DNA from: a virus
Virus record (IMG/VR): IMGVR_UViG_3300030333_008604
Coordinates: 58,943 to 122,942 of that record
Length of the DNA: 64,000 bases
Reading direction: 5' to 3' (one strand)
Shown: piece by piece, positions 16,541-59,116 of the stretch
Layout: the number at the start of each line of letters is the position of its first letter
Position numbering within the stretch: the stretch's first letter is position 1
Position numbers and translations under genes: made by a program
Notes under the pieces: model-generated
Told to the model about the DNA's origin: nothing
The model's input: only the letters and a program-made list of their open reading frames with translations
The model's database searches: none

Positions 16541-19500
16541 ATGGCAATAAGCGGATCACTAAATTTTATAACCGCCAGCGAGTTTGGTAGTTATCTAAAG
16601 CCAGGCTCAGATGCGAATCGGAGATTTGGTCTCGATAAAAACGATGCACAGCTAGATGGTTCAACTAGAAATGGCTTTATACCAACTGATTTTGTGGGCT
16701 TGAACACGAATATTCACGAGCCTTTTGATTTAAATTCTAGTTTTCTTGGCTATACTTCATCATACAGCATAATGTCTTATGTTAACGTCGGAACCGATGG
16801 CAACGACACGACGAAAGATGGCTCATCTCAAGGATATGGCGGCTTTATAAACGTCAATTATCAGGCAGACGAGGCAGGCGACTTAGGATTTAGCACTGCT
16901 TATATTTTCAACGCTTTAATGTTGCATCGAAATGGACCCTATCAGCGCCCAATGTGGCAACAGTTTAGAGACGCGAGTCATCCAATTGCAAGATATTTAA
17001 GACTACACAACACAATGTCTATATCTAGCAAGTCTCCATGGAACATGGCCGACCCTGCGAATAAGGCTAATGCTCCCTTGCAACAACATCAGTGGGGCAA
17101 ACACAACGAGCACGATCCCACAACTCCTAAGTCTAATTATGCTGATAATTTTATACTTTTCCAAACGCTAGATAAATACAGCACAACAGTTAAATTTTAT
17201 GAATCGGCTGTTGTGTCAAATCACCTTCCTTTAAAATATACGGTAAATATTGGCGACTCGCCAGCCATCGTGCGCCAGACGCTTTTTAATGAATTAACTT
17301 ATTTTACCAATGAAGACTTAAATAAAAAGTTGAAATTATCAGATGGCAAGCCTCCTAATGTTTTTGATAATGTCAACGATTTTTATATTAAGCGTCCCAT
17401 GGAACCGTATCGAATGTTGCAAGCCGCAAAACAAATAGATGGCATGCGTGATGTTACACTTAAAGAGCGGATATATCCACGAGAAGTAAACACATATCGA
17501 CCAACCACCAGAAAGAAAGATCTTTATGACGAGGTGGCTGGTACAGACTTTAAAGGTTATGACCGCGTTTCTTATAGAACTTTCTGGAGAGATTCTCAAG
17601 CAAACCGTGCTCGTACGGACGACGCGTGCCTTAATTCTCAAGGTTACAATCAAAGGATCCCTTTTCAAGATTATATTGCACGCTCAGGATCACAAGGAGA
17701 CAATAGTCTCAAAAATTACATGTGCTCAAATCAATATTATATGAGCGGCTCTGTGCCATTTGTCGCCGCCGGCGTTGTAACTTGGCAAAGAGAGTCTGAG
17801 CACGTTAAATATCCTCCTTCCGGTTCTTCAGTTTTCGGTCAACAGCGTGAAATGTATCAACCATACCAAATTGCTCTGAATAGCATGTGGCCGCTTGACG
17901 TCCGTAGTGACATATATGACAGGCCCTACTACTTGGCAGCAGTTCACAATTCAGGCACACATTCAGATTTTTCAGACGGTCCCAGTGTTGCAATTGGCCT
18001 CTCGCCGTTAGCTCCTGCAGCTTTAATGTCGAGCCGCTCTTTTGCTGCCGCAGTTACTTCCAGTATCACGAGATCTGCCGGCGAGCTTGTGTATAGTACA
18101 AAGCCAACAATACTTTACTGGGCCCAGCAAATAAACGCTACTTCATTTGTTCATGAGGGTCATCCAACAGTTAGTGGCAAATCTGCAGATGACACCGCGC
18201 AAGAAGTTCCTATAGCACGAGTTTCCGGAAGCCGCGCGCGCAATCGAGGATTGTCAGTTAGTGGGGACACCCACACAGGCGGGCTCACTTTGGGTTCAAC
18301 CGGCGATCACCCTAGTCAATATAACGCAAACTTTTCTTTTACTGGGTCATCATACGGCTCTCTTCGCGATGGCTATCACGCAGCCACTGCGTCTTTGCAA
18401 TTCTTGAGACATGCCTATCCTTATCAAACTCCGTACTGGGCGGCTCATTTGATTTCCGAACGAAATCCAATGTATGACTCATATGAAGATTTTTCACAAG
18501 ATCTGTATTACATTGGCAAGGACTATTCTATCGTACCAGAGTTTAGATATTCTGAGCACTATGATTATTATACGCCTAGATTTGGTATGTTTACTTCTCC
18601 AAATCTTAAAATGTTTGGTCTGGATACTGACAAGGGCTACAAAGCCTTTAAAAGGAACTACAGCAAGCTAATAGAGCCTAAAGTTAATTTCTTAACTATT
18701 GACGGTGTCGATCTCCAACAAACACAGACAGATTTCTCTAGCGGCCCTCAAAACAAGTATGAGTTCAAAACGCAGTTTTATGAATTGGATGATTTAGATT
18801 ACACTTCGAATACTCTGGCTATAGTAGACACGCCGGATAAAAGCTATAAAGCTTATCCGCAAAGTGTAGAATTTCATGGCAAATATACGGAAACCGAACC
18901 CGCGACAAATTTCTCTTATTTACTCCGCCTAGGCGACAATTTTACCGATGGAGAGGAAACAATACCCAGCAGGATTACTTTAAAGTTTATGGCAATTAAA
19001 AAACTGCTACCATATAACGGCTTTTATCCTGTTTCGCGCACTGTTCAGATCGGGACTCACCTATCGCAAGCATTTGGCAGCTATTTGACAGGAACCAACA
19101 ATGAGGATCTTTACACGAACTATCCGGGCGCCGCCTTGATACAGGCATCAGGAACTCTTCAAGCGGCGCGCCTTCAAGCCTTGTTAGAACCATTGATGGC
19201 CCCGGGGCTTCTATACAACTCTATTAAGTCAGGAATTGCTGTAAATCATCCAATTTATAGATCTTATAAGGATGGAGCGCCAGAGCAAGAGTTCCCTATG
19301 AAGTACTTCGGGCCACGTCAGCCAAATTGGTATGGCGAAGAGCTTGGCGCCGAAGATCCTGCCGTTACAAATGTTGGCCATTCTACTAATCGTTTTGGCT
19401 TTTCCGACAAGCTTGGACAAGTCGCCCGTCATCTGTGCATCTCAAAAGCATCCTCCACGTACGGCGAAGGCATCCAGCCGCACAGCAAAGCTGCAGCCAC

Positions 19501-22500
19501 GCCTCCAGAATCAGCAACGGGCAATTATTCTCTTGAGGTGTTCACGAACAACATGGAGCTAGCTGCTAACGATTCACACGGCTTGCACTATCATGCTGAC
19601 TTTGTGGGGCTGGGTCACGGCTCAATGATGGGCGTGGCTTCTGCAATGCCAACATTTTTAAAAGTATCAGCTAGCTTCAAGCTACCCTTTGAAGCACTTT
19701 ACACACCCTCTCTTCTAAAGCAGGCTTTTAAATCGGATAATGATGGAGAAGTACAAAATGCGTCTTATTTACCTTACGATTTTATTGACGAAGCCCGTGC
19801 CCGCGAATTGAGATCAACTTTTGGCGAGACGGTCACCAACGCAAAACTGAGAGGGGCAAAGGGATCAAGAACGTCAGAATCAAGCTGGACACCTTTATGG
19901 AATCCGGATGCTTCTTTTAGTTTTGGGGCGATATTGGGTGGACCGGTTCAACGCACCTCGTTAAAGAGATATCAAAGCTCCATGAGTAATTTTCTTTGTG
20001 AAACGATGGACTTTTTCCTAGAGGGTGGTGATGCAAAATTCCCAGTCATTCAAAGCAATCCAATATATGGAGGAATTGAGCTTGAGCCCAAAACTTACAC
20101 TATGGACGTTCAGCTTCACCAGGCTAAAGATCACGTCTTGTGCGAGGGTCCACGTCTAGCTTCATTAAACACTGAGTATGGCAAAAAACATGTGCGCGCA
20201 CCCAATACAGGTCCTGATCGTGTGACTTCTGGGTCTGCCATGATGCGAGGCGCTCTTTTTGGACCACCGGTTCAAATAATTGAGCCTCTTAAGATAGACG
20301 AGACAAACCTAAGATATACTTATATTCCGAACATATTTAAGATTAGTAACGATTCTGGCCCTGCTAATGGCGATGAAATAAGATTTTGTGTTAATTATCA
20401 CAACGCTAGATTTAATATCAATAGCGCGTGGGACGACGCCGTCAATGATACGCGCACCGGCGATGGCGACAATCCAGGCTGGGTTACGATTAGGTTTGTA
20501 ACCAATCTTACGTCTGGCGACATTACTACCGACAACCTAATTGAGGTCAAGATAGGATCCACGACTGCTGAAACAGCGCAACGAGCAGTTAATGCAATTA
20601 ACGGAGTCGATCTGACCGGCGCGGACATGTCTGATTATTATAAGACTGGCGCAGATATTTATGCTCCATATGGTTCTGGACACTCGACCTATGGTTCGCT
20701 TGGCCGGGCCAAAGCTAGAGGCTTTTCTGCAACACAAGATAGTACATATCCTGGAGTTTACATCCCACCGTTTGGTATTTTGGCTACAACAGGCTCGACC
20801 TCTACTTCTTGGATTAGCATATGGTCCACGATACCTCACCCTGTTACTCGTCTTTCTGGCAACATAGGTTCCGAAAGCAGCCATGCTACAGCGCCTTATA
20901 TAGGCTTTGATCAAAAAGACGCCTCATCTAGCAATCGCATGCTTAACTCTTCCGCCTTGACGTCAACTTCTATTGGCTGGGTGTCTGGCGGCATGCCAGC
21001 TAGCTCGCTTGCTCTCGGAACTTCATATTTATATGGCGCCGCCGCAGGCGTACCATGGGAGAAGCTTGGCGAAACACAATTTGGATATTATGATAGTAGC
21101 ATGAAGGCTGTAAATTCGGCGTCATCTGAATTATATTACAATCTTCAAGACCCTGCCTATCAAGCTTATACTCCTCCTTATTTCTATGGACCTAGTTCTG
21201 CTGTTATTTCTTTTAAGGCCGAGGGGACAACAAACTACAAGTTATCTGAGATTGTCTCTAATACTAGAAGCAACTCGTATTATTTTGAAGAATATTATAA
21301 AGATTTGTGTCCAAGAATGCCCTCTACTGGCTCTTTATCAAGTGGCTCCATGAATAGAATGAAAATCGAAGCCTCAGTCGACATTTGGGAGTCAACAAAA
21401 GGAAATGAAGGAAAAAATAACATCTTTACACTTAAGGCCCGCGAAGATGAGCCTGAGAAAGAAGGCGAAGTTTGGTGGATGGCTCCAAAATGGATGGCAC
21501 CAGTGCTTGACATGTCCGAGGACAGCGTACCGTATCGCAAAACAACGCGATATCAGAAAAATGGCGATGTCCTTCAATCAGATAAGGTTACTGAAGTCGT
21601 TACATCGTCTGGTACGCAATATTATGGTCACCGAACAGGGCGATCTATTTGGATGGGTTATGGTTATGATCCGTACGATGAAGATCTCATCGAAGCCGTA
21701 CATGGTGAAGGTCACGAAAAAGAAAAGGGCATATGGCTAACAGTTAAAGATGTCAATATTGGAGTTTCAGGAGATCAGGCAACGACTCCAGGTTTTGTTA
21801 CGGATATTGGAAGCAACACGGCTCTTGCAGCTACGCGTGAATCTGCTTTTGGAAACCAAGATACCGCATCTTTAGGCGATGCACTGGGCTTTCATGATGC
21901 AGGTAGTGGTATGACTTATCCTCTTGGCCGCATGAATAACGCCAAATTAGTTAGTGAGGCAGTTGTCGCAATACCTTACTTTGAAAAAGGCTTCCAGAAA
22001 CGTGTGAATTTCCCAGGCGAGCATTATGATTCAACTATCTATGGGACAGTTGAGATTTTGCCGGGCAAGCACTTCTTAAGAATCTGGAACCCTTTGTTTG
22101 AGCGAATGCTGTCGCGTTTGTTAGCACAGAGAAACGCAAAAGTTAAGGCGGGGGTTTCACTGCAGGAATTTTATCAGAAATTTAATACTAGCGAGATTGC
22201 AATAAAAGAAATTAGAAAAACTGATTTAGGCAAGATGATTGCAACTCTTATCGGCGATGTGAATGCTTTTGATCCTGCTTCTGCTCCTGAATTTGAGGCT
22301 GTTAGTTATGTTTTACCACCTGAGATGGATTTTATTCACAACAAGGCGGTAACGCCATTCCAGATGTTGATTGCGCCATTTTATCAGTTCTTAGATAAGC
22401 AAGATTTGACAAATATTTACCAAGGACTGATGCCTGACTGCTCAATGAGGGCTGAAAAAGATTTTGTAAAAATTACCACAAGTCCTGGACGAGGTTCGGC

Positions 22501-43739: not shown

Positions 43740-45314
43740 ATGACGGCTCAGCTTACCAAGCAACAGATAATTAAAGAAGTCGTTAGATCCGGAAAAGATC
43801 CTAAGTATTTTATTAATAACTACGCTAAGATTTCTCACCCGATGAAGGGCTTGATCCCGTTCAAGACTTATGACTTTCAGGGAGATCTTTTAGAGGACTT
43901 CAATGATCATCGCTTCACGATCGTTCTAAAAGCTCGCCAGTTAGGTATTTCTACAATAACTGCAGCATATATCGCTTGGCTTATGATGTTTCACCGCGAT
44001 AAAAATGTCTTAGTTATCGCAACTAAATTTCAAACCGCGTCGAACTTAGTCAAAAAAGTTAAGTCGATACACAAAAACCTTCCCGACTGGTTGCGCATTT
44101 CAAATATTGCAATCGACAACAGGACATCTTTTGAGCTATCCAACGGATCTCAAATAAAAGCCGCGGCAACTAGTGGTGACGCCGGCCGTTCAGAAGCTCT
44201 TTCTTTGTTGGTTATTGATGAGGCGGCTCACGTCGATGGATTAGATGATTTATGGACAGGCTTGTATCCCACCTTGTCAACCGGTGGTCGATGCATCGCT
44301 CTTTCTACTCCAAACGGCGTTGGGAACTGGTTTCATCAAACTTGCGTCGACGCTGAGATAGACAGCAACGACTTTCACTTGGTCACGTTGCCGTGGGATG
44401 TCCATCCCGACCGGGGCAAAGAGTGGTTTGACAATGAAACAAAAAACATGTCTCGTAGGCAAATTGCACAGGAGCTTGAGTGTAACTTTAACATGTCAGG
44501 AGAAACCGTATTCCACCCCGAGGATATGGAATTAATTCAGCAAAATTTGTGCGATCCTAAATACAAGACCGGTTTTGATAGAAATTTGTGGATATGGGAA
44601 GAGCACAGCCCTGAGTACACTTACAGCCTATCTGCAGATGTCGCTCGTGGCGACGGCCAAGACTTTTCTACGTTTGCTGTTTTTAAAATAGAGACGGACG
44701 AAGTTGTTGCAGAATATAAAGGCAAGCCGACACCTGATATTTTTGCTAATATGTTGAATGAAGTCGGTAAAGAGTATGGGACCTGCATGATTGTTGTCGA
44801 AAACAACTCTGTTGGGTGGGCAGTCTTAAACAAGCTGGAAGAATATGGATATCCAAATATATATTATTCAAAAAAATCAACACACGAATATATCGACCCG
44901 CTTCTTTCACAGACATCTGGCGTCATCGCCGGCTTTACAAACTCGCAAAAGACAAGACCTCTCGTTATAGCCAAAATGGAAGAGTTTGTTAGAAATAAAC
45001 TAATTAAGATAAAATCAAAAAGATTATTTAATGAGATGAAAACTTTTGTTTGGCACAATGGCAAGCCGGAGGCTATGAAAAAGCATAATGATGACTTAGT
45101 CATTGCTTATGCGATCGGCTGTTGGATCAAAGACACAGCCTATTCTGTTAATCAGCGAAACGTTGCCTATCAAAGGGCCTTTTTGTCTTCTATAAATACT
45201 TCGAACACAACACTAAACACTTCTATCAAAGGTATGTTAGGATATAACAAGCCACTAGAAGATAAAGAAAATAAAGAAAACTACAAAGAATTTGCCTGGC
45301 TCTTGAAAGGATAA
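43740..45314 (+). CDS. 17: Terminase large subunit, gp17-like
   Basis: The 524-aa protein has the two-domain layout of a packaging motor. The N-terminal ATPase shows a Walker-A region KARQLGIST (64-72) in which the usual GKT/S lysine is missing and K64 is upstream; Walker B LLVIDEAA with D160/E161; and the coupling motif ALSTPNG (about 186-192). The C-terminal RNase-H-like nuclease has D300 in SADVARGDG, E354 in VVENN, and D451/D452 in HNDDLVIAYA. It cuts and pumps DNA into proheads through the portal, encoded immediately downstream. Start: ATG 2 bases after the upstream stop; no strong ribosome-binding site is evident. Confidence 0.95.
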   Translation: MTAQLTKQQIIKEVVRSGKDPKYFINNYAKISHPMKGLIPFKTYDFQGDLLEDFNDHRFTIVLKARQLGISTITAAYIAWLMMFHRDKNVLVIATKFQTASNLVKKVKSIHKNLPDWLRISNIAIDNRTSFELSNGSQIKAAATSGDAGRSEALSLLVIDEAAHVDGLDDLWTGLYPTLSTGGRCIALSTPNGVGNWFHQTCVDAEIDSNDFHLVTLPWDVHPDRGKEWFDNETKNMSRRQIAQELECNFNMSGETVFHPEDMELIQQNLCDPKYKTGFDRNLWIWEEHSPEYTYSLSADVARGDGQDFSTFAVFKIETDEVVAEYKGKPTPDIFANMLNEVGKEYGTCMIVVENNSVGWAVLNKLEEYGYPNIYYSKKSTHEYIDPLLSQTSGVIAGFTNSQKTRPLVIAKMEEFVRNKLIKIKSKRLFNEMKTFVWHNGKPEAMKKHNDDLVIAYAIGCWIKDTAYSVNQRNVAYQRAFLSSINTSNTTLNTSIKGMLGYNKPLEDKENKENYKEFAWLLKG

Positions 45315-45317
45315 AAC

Positions 45318-47270
45318 ATGGCGCCCAAAACAAAAACAAGCAATCCAAGAAATCCACAAAATAAGCTTTTTCGGCAGCTTACAAAGCTTCTTTCTGGCCC
45401 TCTGATTCGCTACCGACGGCAGGACACTCGACAACTTCGAAGAAAACAGTTAGATAAGTATAAAAGTCGCTTTAGGTCTATAAGTGGGCAAGAATTCAAG
45501 ATGCACTCTTATGGGGATGTCTATGGCGCGCTTCAAAGCGAATACTATGCCAATCAAAACCGCCTGGACAGATATGTAGATTTTGATCAGATGGAGTACA
45601 CTCCAGAAATCGCGTCCAGCATGGACATCTATGCGGATGAAATGACAACTAGCTCTCTTTATCGGCCGATCTTAAATATAACGTGCAGCAACCAAGAGAT
45701 TAAGTCTGTTTTGGAAACTCTTTACTACAATGTTCTCAACGTTGAGTTTAATTTGTATGGCTGGGCTCGTTCTATGTGCAAATACGGAGATTTTTTCGTG
45801 TACATGGATATTGAAGAGGATGAGGGGATTAAAAATGTTATTGGTCTTCCGCCAACAGAAATTGAAAGACTTGAGGGTGAGGACAAAAACAACCCAAACT
45901 ATATTCAGTTTCAGTGGAATACGGCCGGCCTTACTTTAGAAAATTGGCAAATTGCACATTTTAGAATTTTGGGTAATGACAAGTTTTCTCCTTATGGTAC
46001 ATCTATTTTGGAGCCTGCTAGAAGAATTTGGCGACAGTTGACATTGCTTGAAGACGCTGTCATGGCTTATCGAATCGTGCGATCACCCGAACGACGTGCT
46101 TTCTACATTGATGTTGGAAACATACCCCCGCAAGATGTCGAACAATACATGCAGAGAGTCATGACTCAGATGAAGCGCAACCAAATCGTTGATGCTAATT
46201 CTGGCCGCGTAGACTTGCGCTATAATCCTTTGAGCATTGAGGAGGATTATTATATTCCAGTCCGCGGCGGGGTCTCGAATACTAAAATTGAAACAGTTGG
46301 CGGCGGAAGCTATACTGGCGATATCGATGATGTTAAATATCTGAGGGACAAACTGTTCAGCGCGCTAAAAGTACCTCAGTCGTATTTATCTCGCGGAGAA
46401 GGTGGCGAAGAGGATAAGGCCACGCTAGCTCAAAAAGACATTAGATTTGCGAGAACAATTCAGAGACTGCAAAGATCTTTAGTTTCTGAGCTAGAGAAGA
46501 TAGCAATTATTCATTTATATACGATAGGCTATCGCGGTAATGACTTGTTGTCTTTTAAGCTAGCTCTGAACAATCCATCCAAATTGGCGGAATTGCAAGA
46601 ATTAGAACACTGGAAAGCGCGTTTTGATGCAGCCGAAGGCGCAAACGAGGGATACTTTAGTCGACGCTGGGTCGCAAAAAATATTCTAGGTATTAGCGAA
46701 GAAGAGTTCCAAAGAATGCAGGTTGAAGCTTTTTATGACAAGAAGCACGATTTAGCTCTAGAGCAAGTGGGTGAAGCCGCAGCAGCCGACGCCGCCGGCG
46801 GAGCAGGCGGTGGCCTAGGCGACCTTGGAGGCGATATGGGAGGCGATATGGGCGGCGACCTCGAAGACCTTGGAGGTGAGGAGGCCCCAGCAGGCGAAGA
46901 AGAAGCCGGCCCAGCGGACGACACGAACGTCTTGGCAGCCCCAGCGGGTGGAGAAGAAGCCCCAGCCAAGAGAGACGATGATTATAGATACTATAAGAAG
47001 AGTAAATATCGCCCCGTTAAAAGCGATAAGCGAGATATTGGCGCTCGCCGAAGAGCGAACAAAGGTCTTTATTCTAGGGAGACCGCTTCGCCTACGTCTA
47101 GGAATATTTTGCCCGGAGCAGACGAAATTAACTCACTTTATAGATTTTCTGAAAGTTTGAATTCTATTTATCAAGAAGAGGAACAAAAATTGTTCAATGA
47201 GCAGTTCGAAATAAAGTCTTTAATAGAGTCTTTGGAGAAGAATAATAAAAATGAAAATGAGCCACAATAA
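45318..47270 (+). CDS. 20: Portal protein, gp20-like
   Basis: The 650-aa protein shows the T4-type portal core: RYVDFDQMEYTPEIASSMDI, MCKYGDFFVYMDIEED, IAHFRILGNDKFSPYGTS and IWRQLTLLEDAVMAYRIVR, then RAFYIDVGN and a helical stem. It forms the dodecameric ring through which DNA passes. From about residue 493 the tail is Gly/Asp/Glu/Ala-rich (GGDMGG repeats, then EEAPAGEEEAG), followed by a basic segment (KSKYRPVKSDKR) and a helical end, an extension longer than in T4 gp20 (524 aa). Terminase lies directly upstream. Its end overlaps the next start by 20 bases. Confidence 0.93.
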   Translation: MAPKTKTSNPRNPQNKLFRQLTKLLSGPLIRYRRQDTRQLRRKQLDKYKSRFRSISGQEFKMHSYGDVYGALQSEYYANQNRLDRYVDFDQMEYTPEIASSMDIYADEMTTSSLYRPILNITCSNQEIKSVLETLYYNVLNVEFNLYGWARSMCKYGDFFVYMDIEEDEGIKNVIGLPPTEIERLEGEDKNNPNYIQFQWNTAGLTLENWQIAHFRILGNDKFSPYGTSILEPARRIWRQLTLLEDAVMAYRIVRSPERRAFYIDVGNIPPQDVEQYMQRVMTQMKRNQIVDANSGRVDLRYNPLSIEEDYYIPVRGGVSNTKIETVGGGSYTGDIDDVKYLRDKLFSALKVPQSYLSRGEGGEEDKATLAQKDIRFARTIQRLQRSLVSELEKIAIIHLYTIGYRGNDLLSFKLALNNPSKLAELQELEHWKARFDAAEGANEGYFSRRWVAKNILGISEEEFQRMQVEAFYDKKHDLALEQVGEAAAADAAGGAGGGLGDLGGDMGGDMGGDLEDLGGEEAPAGEEEAGPADDTNVLAAPAGGEEAPAKRDDDYRYYKKSKYRPVKSDKRDIGARRRANKGLYSRETASPTSRNILPGADEINSLYRFSESLNSIYQEEEQKLFNEQFEIKSLIESLEKNNKNENEPQ

Positions 47271-49182: not shown

Positions 49183-49815
49183 ATGGCAAAAAAGCTTTTA
49201 CAAGAGTATTATGAGTTGTGCCCGGACGGTCGCTGCCCGGTACATGTATTAACTGAATCTGAAAAGAAAAGAGTAATGGATGGATCAGTTTATCTTGTCG
49301 GTGTCTGCCAAAAGGCGGGCACAAAAAACGGCAATGGGCGCGTATACAACAAGGACACTCTAGGTCGAGAAATCGAAAAGTATCAAAATGCTATCAAGGA
49401 GCGTCGATCATTAGGCGAACTAGATCATCCTGACGATTCTGTTATAAATCTTAAAAATGCGTCACATGTTGTCACTAAAATGTGGTGGGATGGTGATAGT
49501 GTCATGGGAAAGATAGAGGTTTTAGATACACCTTCCGGCAATATTCTTAAAGCTTTGGTTAAGTCTGGCGTTAAGCTCGGCATCTCTTCTCGCGGTCTAG
49601 GCACAGTCAAAGAAAGCAATGGAGTTACCATGGTGGAGGACGATTTTCAACTTATTTGTTTTGATATTGTTTCTGAGCCTTCAACCCCTGGCGCTTATTT
49701 GTCACCCAAAAAAGGCCCAACCCAGGTTAACATTGGCTCAACCATTAATCAGTATTTAAATGAGAACAAGGAAAGCAAAATTAATAATTTGCTAGACTCT
49801 ATCTTAAAAGGTTGA
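49183..49815 (+). CDS. 21: Prohead core protease, gp21-like
   Basis: The 210-aa protein matches T4 gp21 (212 aa) in length and in catalytic motifs: GELDHPDD with H82, and GISSRGLG with S135/S136. Other conserved blocks are NGNGRVYNKDTL and ISEPSTPGA-like FDIVSEPSTPGAYLS. The protein cleaves scaffold, capsid and internal proteins at (I/L)-x-E sites during prohead maturation; in T4 it is also self-processed. Likely substrates here include gp22 and gp23 nearby. It starts six bases after the 55-aa gene. Confidence 0.95.
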   Translation: MAKKLLQEYYELCPDGRCPVHVLTESEKKRVMDGSVYLVGVCQKAGTKNGNGRVYNKDTLGREIEKYQNAIKERRSLGELDHPDDSVINLKNASHVVTKMWWDGDSVMGKIEVLDTPSGNILKALVKSGVKLGISSRGLGTVKESNGVTMVEDDFQLICFDIVSEPSTPGAYLSPKKGPTQVNIGSTINQYLNENKESKINNLLDSILKG

Positions 49816-50191: not shown

Positions 50192-50200
50192 AGGTGTGTG

Positions 50201-50431
50201 ATGTCTAAAGTTGTAAATGTGGAAGTATCTCTCTCGGAAGTTCGAGGCGATCAAAGCAGATTAATTAAGAAATTCATTAAAAAGTGCAAAAAAGAAAGAA
50301 TAATTGAAGACTATTTATCTAGATTGAGATATGAAAAACCGTCAGCTAAGCGCCGACGCGAAAAATTAAGAAAAAAAGAGAATGCAAAAAGGGCTGAAGC
50401 TGAGAGAAGATCAAAACAGTCGAAAAATTAG
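50201..50431 (+). CDS. rpsU: Ribosomal protein bS21 homologue
   Basis: A 76-aa basic protein. Compared with E. coli S21 the core spacing is the same: F25-x3-C29, 15 residues, then Y44-E-K-P-S48, followed by a run of Arg/Lys (AKRRREKLRKKENAKRAE). E. coli has F-x3-C, 15 residues, YEKPT. bS21 binds the 30S platform near the anti-Shine-Dalgarno; viral copies are known from pelagiphages and huge phages and are thought to enter host ribosomes. A GTG three bases upstream could also start. AAGGTG precedes the ATG. It is placed in the head operon, after the protease and the 124-aa gene. The N terminus (residues 1-19) is longer than in E. coli. Confidence 0.92.
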   Translation: MSKVVNVEVSLSEVRGDQSRLIKKFIKKCKKERIIEDYLSRLRYEKPSAKRRREKLRKKENAKRAEAERRSKQSKN

Positions 50432-50440
50432 GAGTTAAAA

Positions 50441-50911
50441 ATGTCAACATTTAAAAGATACGCAGCGGGACTTCACAATGTCGGTTCTTATCAAGTTTCG
50501 GGCTTGCCGTATATTACCGGATCAGCCAACCAAGGCAACGGCTCAGCCGTTCGAGAGGTAAAGTATGAATTTCCTTATGTGACAAAAAAAATTACCGTCA
50601 TGAACCACGCTAATAAGACGATCCGGATCCATTTCAGGCCACACGACACCCCAGGCACCGACCCGGCCGACTCTTCAGCTAGCACTTCGCAAGTTATTGA
50701 CGGTCTTCACTATGTTGAATTAGATTCTGATGAGGATAAGATGGAGATGAACGTGAAGTGTCGCGAGATTTATATTTCAACTGCGGCTGGTACGACCGGC
50801 GCAGCCTATAGAATTTATGCGGAAATGACGAACATTCCAGCTGCAGAGATGCTGCCTTTGACAGGCTCAGGCATAACGGGCACCCCCACGGGTGTGACGA
50901 ACATCAAGTAG
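50441..50911 (+). CDS. Small virion protein, possible head decoration (156 aa)
   Basis: Beta-rich protein with FKRYAAGLHNVGSYQVSGLP at the start, a VTKKITVMNHANKTIRIHFR core and a TGSGITGTPTGVTNI tail. The N-terminal pattern is one I recall from virion proteins of large T4-type phages. AGGAG lies about 9 bases before the ATG. It sits between bS21 and the fibre-like proteins, all in the head module. No enzyme motif. Its role is a guess based on position. Confidence 0.65.
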   Translation: MSTFKRYAAGLHNVGSYQVSGLPYITGSANQGNGSAVREVKYEFPYVTKKITVMNHANKTIRIHFRPHDTPGTDPADSSASTSQVIDGLHYVELDSDEDKMEMNVKCREIYISTAAGTTGAAYRIYAEMTNIPAAEMLPLTGSGITGTPTGVTNIK

Positions 50912-55417: not shown

Positions 55418-55445
55418 GGGGGGAGGTTTTCCTCCCCCCTTCTAT
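55418..55445 (+). terminator. Rho-independent terminator after the 585-aa gene
   Basis: GGGGGGAGG (55418-55426), loop TTTT, CCTCCCCCC (55431-55439) form a perfect 9-bp GC-rich stem, followed by TTCTATTTATA. The U-tract is short and interrupted but the stem is strong. It ends the transcript of the fibre-like genes and separates it from the 151-aa gene. Confidence 0.8.
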
Positions 55446-57248: not shown

Positions 57249-59054
57249 ATGTCTGTTTTACAAAAACTAACTGAAGGCATCGTTGACCGATCCCTCCAGA
57301 GAGAAGGTGCTGCCCTATTAGATAAGTGGGAGCGTACCGGCCTCTTGGAAGGTCTTAACGGTGACCAGCAGAAGCAGGGCATGGCCCGGCTTCTTGAGAA
57401 TCAGGCCTCTCAGCTTCTTAAGGAAGCAACGAGTATGGCCGCCAGCGACGTTGAGGGCTTTGCCTCGGTCGCCTTCCCGATTGTCCGCCGCGTGTTCGGT
57501 GGTCTAATCGCCAATGACCTTGTGTCCGTTCAGCCGATGAGCTTGCCCTCGGGCCTCATTTTCTTCATGGACTTTACCTACACTGATGACCTTGCTTCGG
57601 CAGGTGCTGCAGCCACCGAATCGATTTATGGTGGTGGTGTGGTTGCTAAGGGTCTTGTCGATGGTGTTTCCCTTACTGGGGCTAACGCTGAGAAGAGCTT
57701 TTACGCTCTTAACAACGGCTACTCGTCCCCGACGGGATCTGTCGACAATGTTGTTCAGACTGACTACAGCTTAACCTTAACTGACGGTTCGACTTCAACG
57801 ACCACTCTTGATGGCTCGAAGAAGAAGAGCGAGCTTACTGGCTCTGCCCAGACTGCTCTTAAGGTTATTCAGCATGATCCTGATATCAGTGACAACTCTT
57901 ACGTTGCTGTGTTCGAGATTGCAAAGTCTAGCTTAACGGACGCGCAGTGGAACGAGGCTAACTGCATTGCCATTGATACTGTTGCAGCAACAGCCCAGAA
58001 CGCGCTCGCATCTGGCAAGCACCTTAATGGCGCAACTTTGGTGCGTCGCTTGACGCGTCAGAATCCAGATGACGCTACGAAGATTATGCTTGTCTACACC
58101 AAGGCAACTGCATTCAACGATATTGATACTGACAACGACCAGGTCAAGGTCAACTTCCCGAAGGCTGATAGATTCGATACTGGCGGAGCAATTGGCTCTG
58201 TTGTTGGTAAGGCTCCCTGGGGTCTTGAAGGTGCAGATGACACCGACAACAACACTTTCAATGGCGAAGTTGTTGATACGATTCGCGAGATCGACATCAA
58301 GGTCGACAGCATCGCGGTCACCGCGGTCAGCAAGAAGCTCAAGGCGAAGTGGACCCCTGAGCTTGGCCAGGATCTCAACGCTTATCACAACCTTGATGCC
58401 GAGGTCGAGCTTACTCAGGTCCTCTCCGAGCAGATTGCTCTAGAGATCGATCGTGAGATTGTTCAAGAGCTTGTTAAGGGCGCAAAGGCTAGCACCATGT
58501 ACTGGTCGCGTCGTCCTGGTAAGTTCCTTGATCGCACGACTGGAACGCAGGTTGGCGCTGATGTGGCAAACGAGTCACTGATGGGTGCTGACTTCACTGG
58601 TACCGTGTCCGAGTGGTATGAGACTCTTGTCGAGACCATCAACGACGTGTCGGCCCAGATTCATCGTAAGACGTTGCGCGGCGGAGCTAACTTCTGTGTG
58701 TGCTCACCTGAAGTTGCCAACATTCTGGAGTTCACCTCCGGATTCCGTGCCAACATCACTCACGATGATGACAAAGGCGACATCGGTGCTGTGAAGGCTG
58801 GTAGCCTGAGCCGCAAGTGGGATGTGTGGGTTGACCCCTACTTCCCGCGTAACTTGATCCTTGTCGGTCGTAAGGGCGGCAGCTTCTTAGAGAGTGGATT
58901 TGTTTACGCTCCCTATGTGCCGCTGCAGATCACGCCCACCATCTTCGGTACGGAAGATTTCGTACCACGTAAGGGTGTCATGACCCGCTACGCCAAGAAG
59001 ATGGTACGTCCTGATATGTATGGTTTGGTTGTTGTCCAAGACTTCACTGGCTAA
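57249..59054 (+). CDS. 23: Major capsid protein, gp23-like
   Basis: 601 aa. The N terminus has the T4-type delta domain with a probable maturation site LLKE|ATSM between residues 59 and 60, then FASVAFPIVRRVFGGLIAND, LVSVQPMSLPSGLIFFMDF, typical of gp23. Further family features are LEIDREIVQEL-like (EQIALEIDREIVQELVKGAK), RGGANFCVCSPEVANIL and VDPYFPRNLILVGRKG. T4 gp23 is 521 aa, so there are insertions, mainly about 110-300. AGGAG lies 7-8 bases before the ATG. Codon choice seems more regular than in the tail genes, as expected for the most abundant protein. A strong terminator follows directly. Confidence 0.96.
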   Translation: MSVLQKLTEGIVDRSLQREGAALLDKWERTGLLEGLNGDQQKQGMARLLENQASQLLKEATSMAASDVEGFASVAFPIVRRVFGGLIANDLVSVQPMSLPSGLIFFMDFTYTDDLASAGAAATESIYGGGVVAKGLVDGVSLTGANAEKSFYALNNGYSSPTGSVDNVVQTDYSLTLTDGSTSTTTLDGSKKKSELTGSAQTALKVIQHDPDISDNSYVAVFEIAKSSLTDAQWNEANCIAIDTVAATAQNALASGKHLNGATLVRRLTRQNPDDATKIMLVYTKATAFNDIDTDNDQVKVNFPKADRFDTGGAIGSVVGKAPWGLEGADDTDNNTFNGEVVDTIREIDIKVDSIAVTAVSKKLKAKWTPELGQDLNAYHNLDAEVELTQVLSEQIALEIDREIVQELVKGAKASTMYWSRRPGKFLDRTTGTQVGADVANESLMGADFTGTVSEWYETLVETINDVSAQIHRKTLRGGANFCVCSPEVANILEFTSGFRANITHDDDKGDIGAVKAGSLSRKWDVWVDPYFPRNLILVGRKGGSFLESGFVYAPYVPLQITPTIFGTEDFVPRKGVMTRYAKKMVRPDMYGLVVVQDFTG

Positions 59055-59077: not shown

Positions 59078-59116
59078 AAAACCCCGGTTAGTCCAACTAG
59101 CCGGGGTTTTCTTTTA
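59078..59116 (+). terminator. Strong Rho-independent terminator after the capsid gene
   Basis: AAAACCCCGGTTAGT (59078-59092), loop CCA, ACTAGCCGGGGTTTT (59096-59110) pair over 15 bp with one G-U; a T-rich tract follows. It is the clearest terminator of the window and is expected after the capsid gene. Confidence 0.93.

Follow-up and report, generated by a model that had tools for sequence, protein, structure and literature searches.

Do phages swap a ribosomal protein of their host to steer translation? The question is raised by a small gene in a 64,000-base stretch of DNA from a T4-like phage (the window), which comprises bases 58943-122942 of a 122,942-base IMG/VR virus record. The gene encodes a homolog of ribosomal protein bS21, is under purifying selection, and has a fixed same-strand place in the head gene cluster throughout its large, uncultivated lineage. 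We put at about two in three the probability that this phage bS21 is made with the head genes, replaces host bS21 on the 30S subunit, and alters initiation to the benefit of the phage. We favor this reading because the profile matches are to bS21 only, the structural model is helical, the ratio of nonsynonymous to synonymous change (dN/dS) is low, the placement is invariant, and the divergence of bS21 follows that of the prohead protease.

Identification of the Window Protein as bS21

The open reading frame starts with an ATG at 50201 and stops at 50431 on the + strand (76 amino acids), with an in-frame GTG at 50198 as a possible alternative start. A chance open reading frame was ruled out by conservation and dN/dS. 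The sole Pfam match of the protein was Ribosomal_S21 (PF01165; E = 2.6e-5). The profile check named in a first-pass annotation of this DNA thus returned the expected family, but the score of the single protein, 24.3 bits, was under the curated cut-off of 27 bits. The NCBIfam model S21p (TIGR00030) scored 19.2 bits, below its cut-off of 28.95, and PHROG 21469 (S21) matched at E = 5.5e-4. In a phmmer search of the PDB, bS21 chains ranked top (E = 0.0034). Taken singly, the window protein is on these scores a borderline family match.

A scan of viral contigs for relatives gave 69 loci, and 35 members were aligned. PF01165 was matched individually by all 35 (best E = 6.8e-14), with 48-49 bits for L063 and L065 and 33-37 bits for L003 and L034, which are among the nearer relatives of the window protein. 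A profile of the 35 members matched 28 distinct PDB sequences at E <= 0.01 (E down to 5e-9), every one of them a bacterial or plastid bS21, including that of the Flavobacterium johnsoniae ribosome (7jil). Each of 12 related virus records had exactly one S21 match, in every case above the cut-off. An AlphaFold model of the window protein was helical (mean predicted local distance difference test score 87; helix 47-75), and its best seven Foldseek matches were ribosome or ribosomal-subunit entries, none of them significant (E >= 1.0). Because the relatives match PF01165 and the bS21 chains of the PDB, the identity is settled: the window protein is a divergent yet genuine bS21, as the first-pass annotation had proposed. 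That annotation had named a failed bS21 profile match, or a better match to an unrelated basic protein, as grounds for abandoning the call, and neither came about. An unrelated basic DNA-binding protein was ruled out, since Pfam gave S21 alone and the PDB matches of the profile were all bS21.

The protein has a net charge of +16 and a C-terminal tail rich in Arg and Lys. When aligned with host copies, its layout is F25-x3-C29, 14 residues, Y-E-K-P-S, and then a basic C-terminal helix; the spacing in a host bS21 (L195) is identical (FKRSC-14-YEKPT). The motifs and basic tail described earlier are therefore present, but the interval of 15 residues given between Cys and Tyr is 14, Tyr being the 15th residue after Cys. 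The Cys is replaced by Val in some relatives, and FIKKVKK, FTRKVKK, and FLREVKK are found among relatives collected through the protease (below). The string FIKKCKKE was among the search seeds, so its apparent invariance is partly an artefact. The window protein lacks an aromatic residue of the Tyr54 type, having no aromatic residues beyond Y44. Neither a prohead-protease motif (4/35 family members) nor a capsid-targeting sequence is conserved in bS21, and LSE at residues 11-13 was rejected as a general protease cleavage site because only those 4 of 35 members carry it.

Fixation and Divergence across the Lineage

Gene order is largely the same in relatives whose portal segments are 48-70% identical. 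A second set of relatives was seeded with the prohead protease, which avoids the bias of a bS21-based search; it comprised the 80 best protease matches, at 55-85% identity, so that the result speaks for this lineage. Among these 80, the scaffold/capsid gene was reached in 34 loci, and bS21 was present in all 34, on the same strand as the head genes and between the protease and the scaffold/capsid gene. Distances between bS21 sequences correlated with distances between proteases over 102 non-redundant loci (Mantel r = 0.56; none of 2000 permutations reached this value). Median dN/dS was ~0.05 for bS21, 0.03 for the protease, and 0.06 for the gene upstream of bS21 (g124), with many synonymous distances near saturation. 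By these ratios, purifying selection on the bS21 relatives is strong.

In a tree of 162 bS21 sequences, which with 81 columns is weak evidence, the group of the window protein was separated from the host copies, with moderate support (Shimodaira-Hasegawa-like approximate likelihood ratio test 93, not starred). The bS21 proteins of other phages with a head-cluster copy (L161, L162, L163, L255, and L257) were placed on the host side of the tree, a topology compatible with more than one acquisition. The sequence closest to the window protein came from L152, a contig of a phage that had been placed in a Micavibrio bin; we do not trust that bin as the host.

No relatives turned up when bacterial genomes were scanned for the pattern FIKKCKK. 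A tblastn search of deposited phages with the window protein gave no match, which marks a limit of sensitivity, as the family profile did find the bS21 of Microcystis phage Mel-JY01. Related phage contigs occur in metagenome-assembled genome bins as mixed as Micavibrio, Maricaulis, Flavobacteriaceae, Acidiferrobacteraceae, and others, and host assignment from them was rejected as unreliable for that reason. Several bacterial metagenome-assembled genomes include such phage contigs (L152-L166, from GTDB) and so have at least two bS21 genes, of which one or more is viral. Surveys that count bS21 genes per genome could be misled by viral copies of this kind.

The Head Gene Neighborhood and g124

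The features around the bS21 gene are collected in Table 1. On the + strand, the order is terminase, portal, several small genes, protease, g124, bS21, g156, two large fiber-like genes, one small gene, the scaffold-position gene, and capsid. The bS21 gene is thus two genes past the protease on the head-gene strand, and the earlier placement between the prohead protease and virion protein genes is correct. Outside the window, at ~32-46 kb of the record, a series of consecutive genes resemble glycosyltransferases and sugar-nucleotide enzymes, judging by the appearance of their N-termini.

Table 1. Coordinates of the bS21 gene and surrounding features in the window
Feature	Position	Strand	Basis
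Terminase large subunit	43740..45314	+	phrog_2, E = 1.2e-55
Portal protein (gp20-like)	45318..47270	+	PF07230, E = 5.3e-81
Prohead protease (Peptidase_S77)	49183..49815	+	PF03420, E = 2.5e-32; phrog_207
g124, conserved unnamed gene directly upstream of bS21, 124 amino acids	49817..50191	+	In 129/137 viral bS21 loci; N-terminal amphipathic helix ending [LI]xE
Phage bS21 gene, 76 amino acids	50201..50431	+	PF01165, E = 2.6e-5; 35-member family profile matches bS21 chains only in PDB
g156, conserved gene downstream of bS21	50441..50911	+	Adjoins bS21 in most relatives; no match in Pfam or PHROG
Scaffold-position gene ahead of capsid gene, 407 amino acids	56002..57225	+	Position only; no significant family match
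Major capsid protein (gp23-like)	57249..59054	+	phrog_138, E = 3.2e-72

Of 137 viral bS21 loci, 129 have g124, at a median distance of 7 nucleotides from bS21, and 55 of the 57 loci with g124 and >400 nucleotides beyond it have bS21. In L106 and L121 the pair is further down the cluster and still adjacent. In 8 loci the gap between the two genes exceeds 200 nucleotides, and in more distant lineages bS21 occurs with no recognizable g124. None of 34 g124 members had a match in PHROG. Their conserved features are D-x-G-V/I-D/N-I and a C-terminal Trp, preceded at the N-terminus by a predicted amphipathic helix of ~22 residues; [LI]xE occurs at residues 18-28 in 33/34 members, compared with 95/306 control stretches. 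This N-terminus resembles the capsid-targeting sequences of T4, which the prohead protease of that phage cleaves. Five further proteins of the phage (at 37801 and 42017 of the window and at 17617, 18499, and 18827 of the record) start with a motif like MKITKxxLxxIIxEE, which also resembles T4 capsid-targeting sequences, and are possibly a set of internal head proteins.

Transcription and Translation Signals

The first-pass annotation had placed bS21 in a late transcription unit. The signals at the gene do not establish this: no T4-type late promoter was found directly upstream of bS21, and the + strand carries almost every gene of the 122,942-base record. The nearest upstream T4-late-type sequence on the + strand, TATAAATA, is at 45191, 127 nucleotides before the portal gene. 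Strong terminator-like hairpins follow the 585-amino acid fiber-like gene (55418-55439) and the capsid gene (59078-59110). From TATAAATA before the portal gene and the hairpins at 55418 and 59078, bS21 may share a transcript with the portal and protease genes.

Strong GGAGG sites had also been cited as fitting a preference for late mRNAs; the argument is weak, since only 5 of 52 such sites on the + strand are at predicted gene starts. With gene starts called mechanically, Shine-Dalgarno matches of >=5 nucleotides preceded 22/41 structural genes versus 11/47 other genes (Fisher p = 0.004) and 4% of random positions. The phage thus appears from these counts to use Shine-Dalgarno sequences. That of bS21 itself is modest (AGGTG).

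Comparison with Known Phage bS21 Genes

Alongside a survey of 900 phages with bS21, Chen et al. (2022) tied the head-cluster bS21 to late expression and proposed that it substitutes for host bS21 on the ribosome in the late phase (PMC9723584). In their large myoviruses of lake Bacteroidetes, as in the window, bS21 lies amid terminase, portal, prohead protease, and capsid genes and adjoins a conserved unnamed gene (PMC9723584). However, in those phages bS21 and the head genes lie on opposite strands, whereas they share a strand in 34/34 loci of the window lineage; a Tyr54-type aromatic is present in all 61 of their proteins and absent from ours; and the window protein is not close to the Bacteroidetes copies in the tree.

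The Microcystis phage Mel-JY01 (PP395634) has the annotated order protease, hypothetical gene, RpsU, three genes, and capsid on one strand. Its bS21 is recognized by the window family profile (E = 3e-9) but takes a different position in the tree, with a long branch, and the gene between its protease and bS21 is not recognized as g124. The head-cluster location, which the first-pass annotation had singled out, is accordingly not new, having been reported by Chen et al. and being present in Mel-JY01. What is added here is the lineage-wide fixation and same-strand placement of bS21, its conserved g124 neighbor, and the missing Tyr54-type residue.

A bS21 gene in an aquatic myovirus is also shared with Pelagibacter phage HTVC008M and the pelagimyophages (PMC6375957, PMC7029224). 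For huge phages, Al-Shayeb et al. (2020) proposed that S21 favors initiation on phage mRNA, and noted transfer-messenger RNAs (tmRNAs) in the same set (PMC7162821). A point of difference from the huge-phage rpS21 is that the extra N-terminal residues of the window protein are just a few.

Discussion

We propose that the phage bS21 would be expressed together with the head genes and would displace host bS21 from the 30S platform, near the 3' end of 16S rRNA. The exchange would happen late in infection, as virion proteins are made, and would alter translation initiation in favor of the phage. Ribosome entry and late transcription are carried over by analogy from papers on other phages: HTVC008M bS21 was incorporated into Escherichia coli 70S ribosomes (PMC6375957), and transcription of bS21 coincides with that of structural genes in Bacteroidetes phages (PMC9723584). 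For the present host, we infer the replacement of host bS21, its timing, and any preference for phage mRNA. Several observations weigh against the proposal. E. coli ribosomes with HTVC008M bS21 translated at only ~5% in vitro (PMC6375957), the head region of the phages of Chen et al. is not one operon in transcription (PMC9723584), and Shine-Dalgarno motifs in the window are not limited to structural genes. In Flavobacterium, Tyr54 of bS21 helps to conceal the anti-Shine-Dalgarno sequence (PMC9976891). Use of Shine-Dalgarno sequences by the phage, together with the missing Tyr54, speaks against a plain copy of the Bacteroidetes mechanism.

The exchange could instead serve supply. Phage bS21 would then replenish a loosely bound, exchangeable protein when its synthesis by the host breaks down or comes under attack, and would sustain all translation with no preference for phage mRNA. 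bS21 does belong to the exchangeable ribosomal proteins (PMC6375957), Shine-Dalgarno use exceeds background in the non-structural genes as well, and tmRNA, another translation-maintenance gene, was above the Rfam cut-off in 11/22 long related records. A fixed head-cluster site nevertheless suggests timed use, and sequence divergence from host copies suggests an altered rather than identical function, so that we regard supply as unlikely, at perhaps a quarter of the weight given to the proposed steering of initiation. One of the 11 tmRNA-bearing records is that of the window itself, with the gene outside the window at record positions 19388-19739 (L071:19388-19739) and the tag ANDNVSFDYALAA.

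Much less probable is a role for bS21 carried in the virion, where it would be packaged, perhaps aided by the g124 product, enter with the DNA, and act on ribosomes as infection begins. The fixed site past the protease and beside g124, with its N-terminus like the T4 capsid-targeting sequences, would fit such a role, and Chen et al. mentioned encapsulation as a possibility (PMC9723584). Against it stand the lack of any conserved protease motif or targeting sequence in bS21 itself, the 8 loci in which g124 and bS21 are separated, and the more distant lineages that have bS21 but not g124. We give similarly little credence to a dedicated head-module function in which bS21 and g124 together deliver or load phage bS21 onto ribosomes, perhaps after packaging in the virion; should g124 be taken into the head, bS21 might go in with it. 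Slimmest of all is the chance that a bS21-derived basic protein now serves head assembly or DNA condensation off the ribosome, for the +16 charge, the setting among head genes, the divergence from host copies, and the single member under the family cut-offs are countered by F-x3-(C/V), the K-P-S motif, and a helix layout kept across the lineage, unexpected for a pure DNA binder, and by the many relatives that exceed the bS21 cut-off.

The preferred reading, in which phage bS21 replaces host bS21, addresses the question raised at the outset. For work on it, g124 is a concrete candidate partner of bS21, and Mel-JY01, which is deposited, has a named host, and shows a matching layout, is a possible test system. 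The presence of bS21 at one place in every protease-seeded locus that reaches the scaffold/capsid gene suggests that it is a core part of the infection program of these phages rather than a sporadic acquisition.
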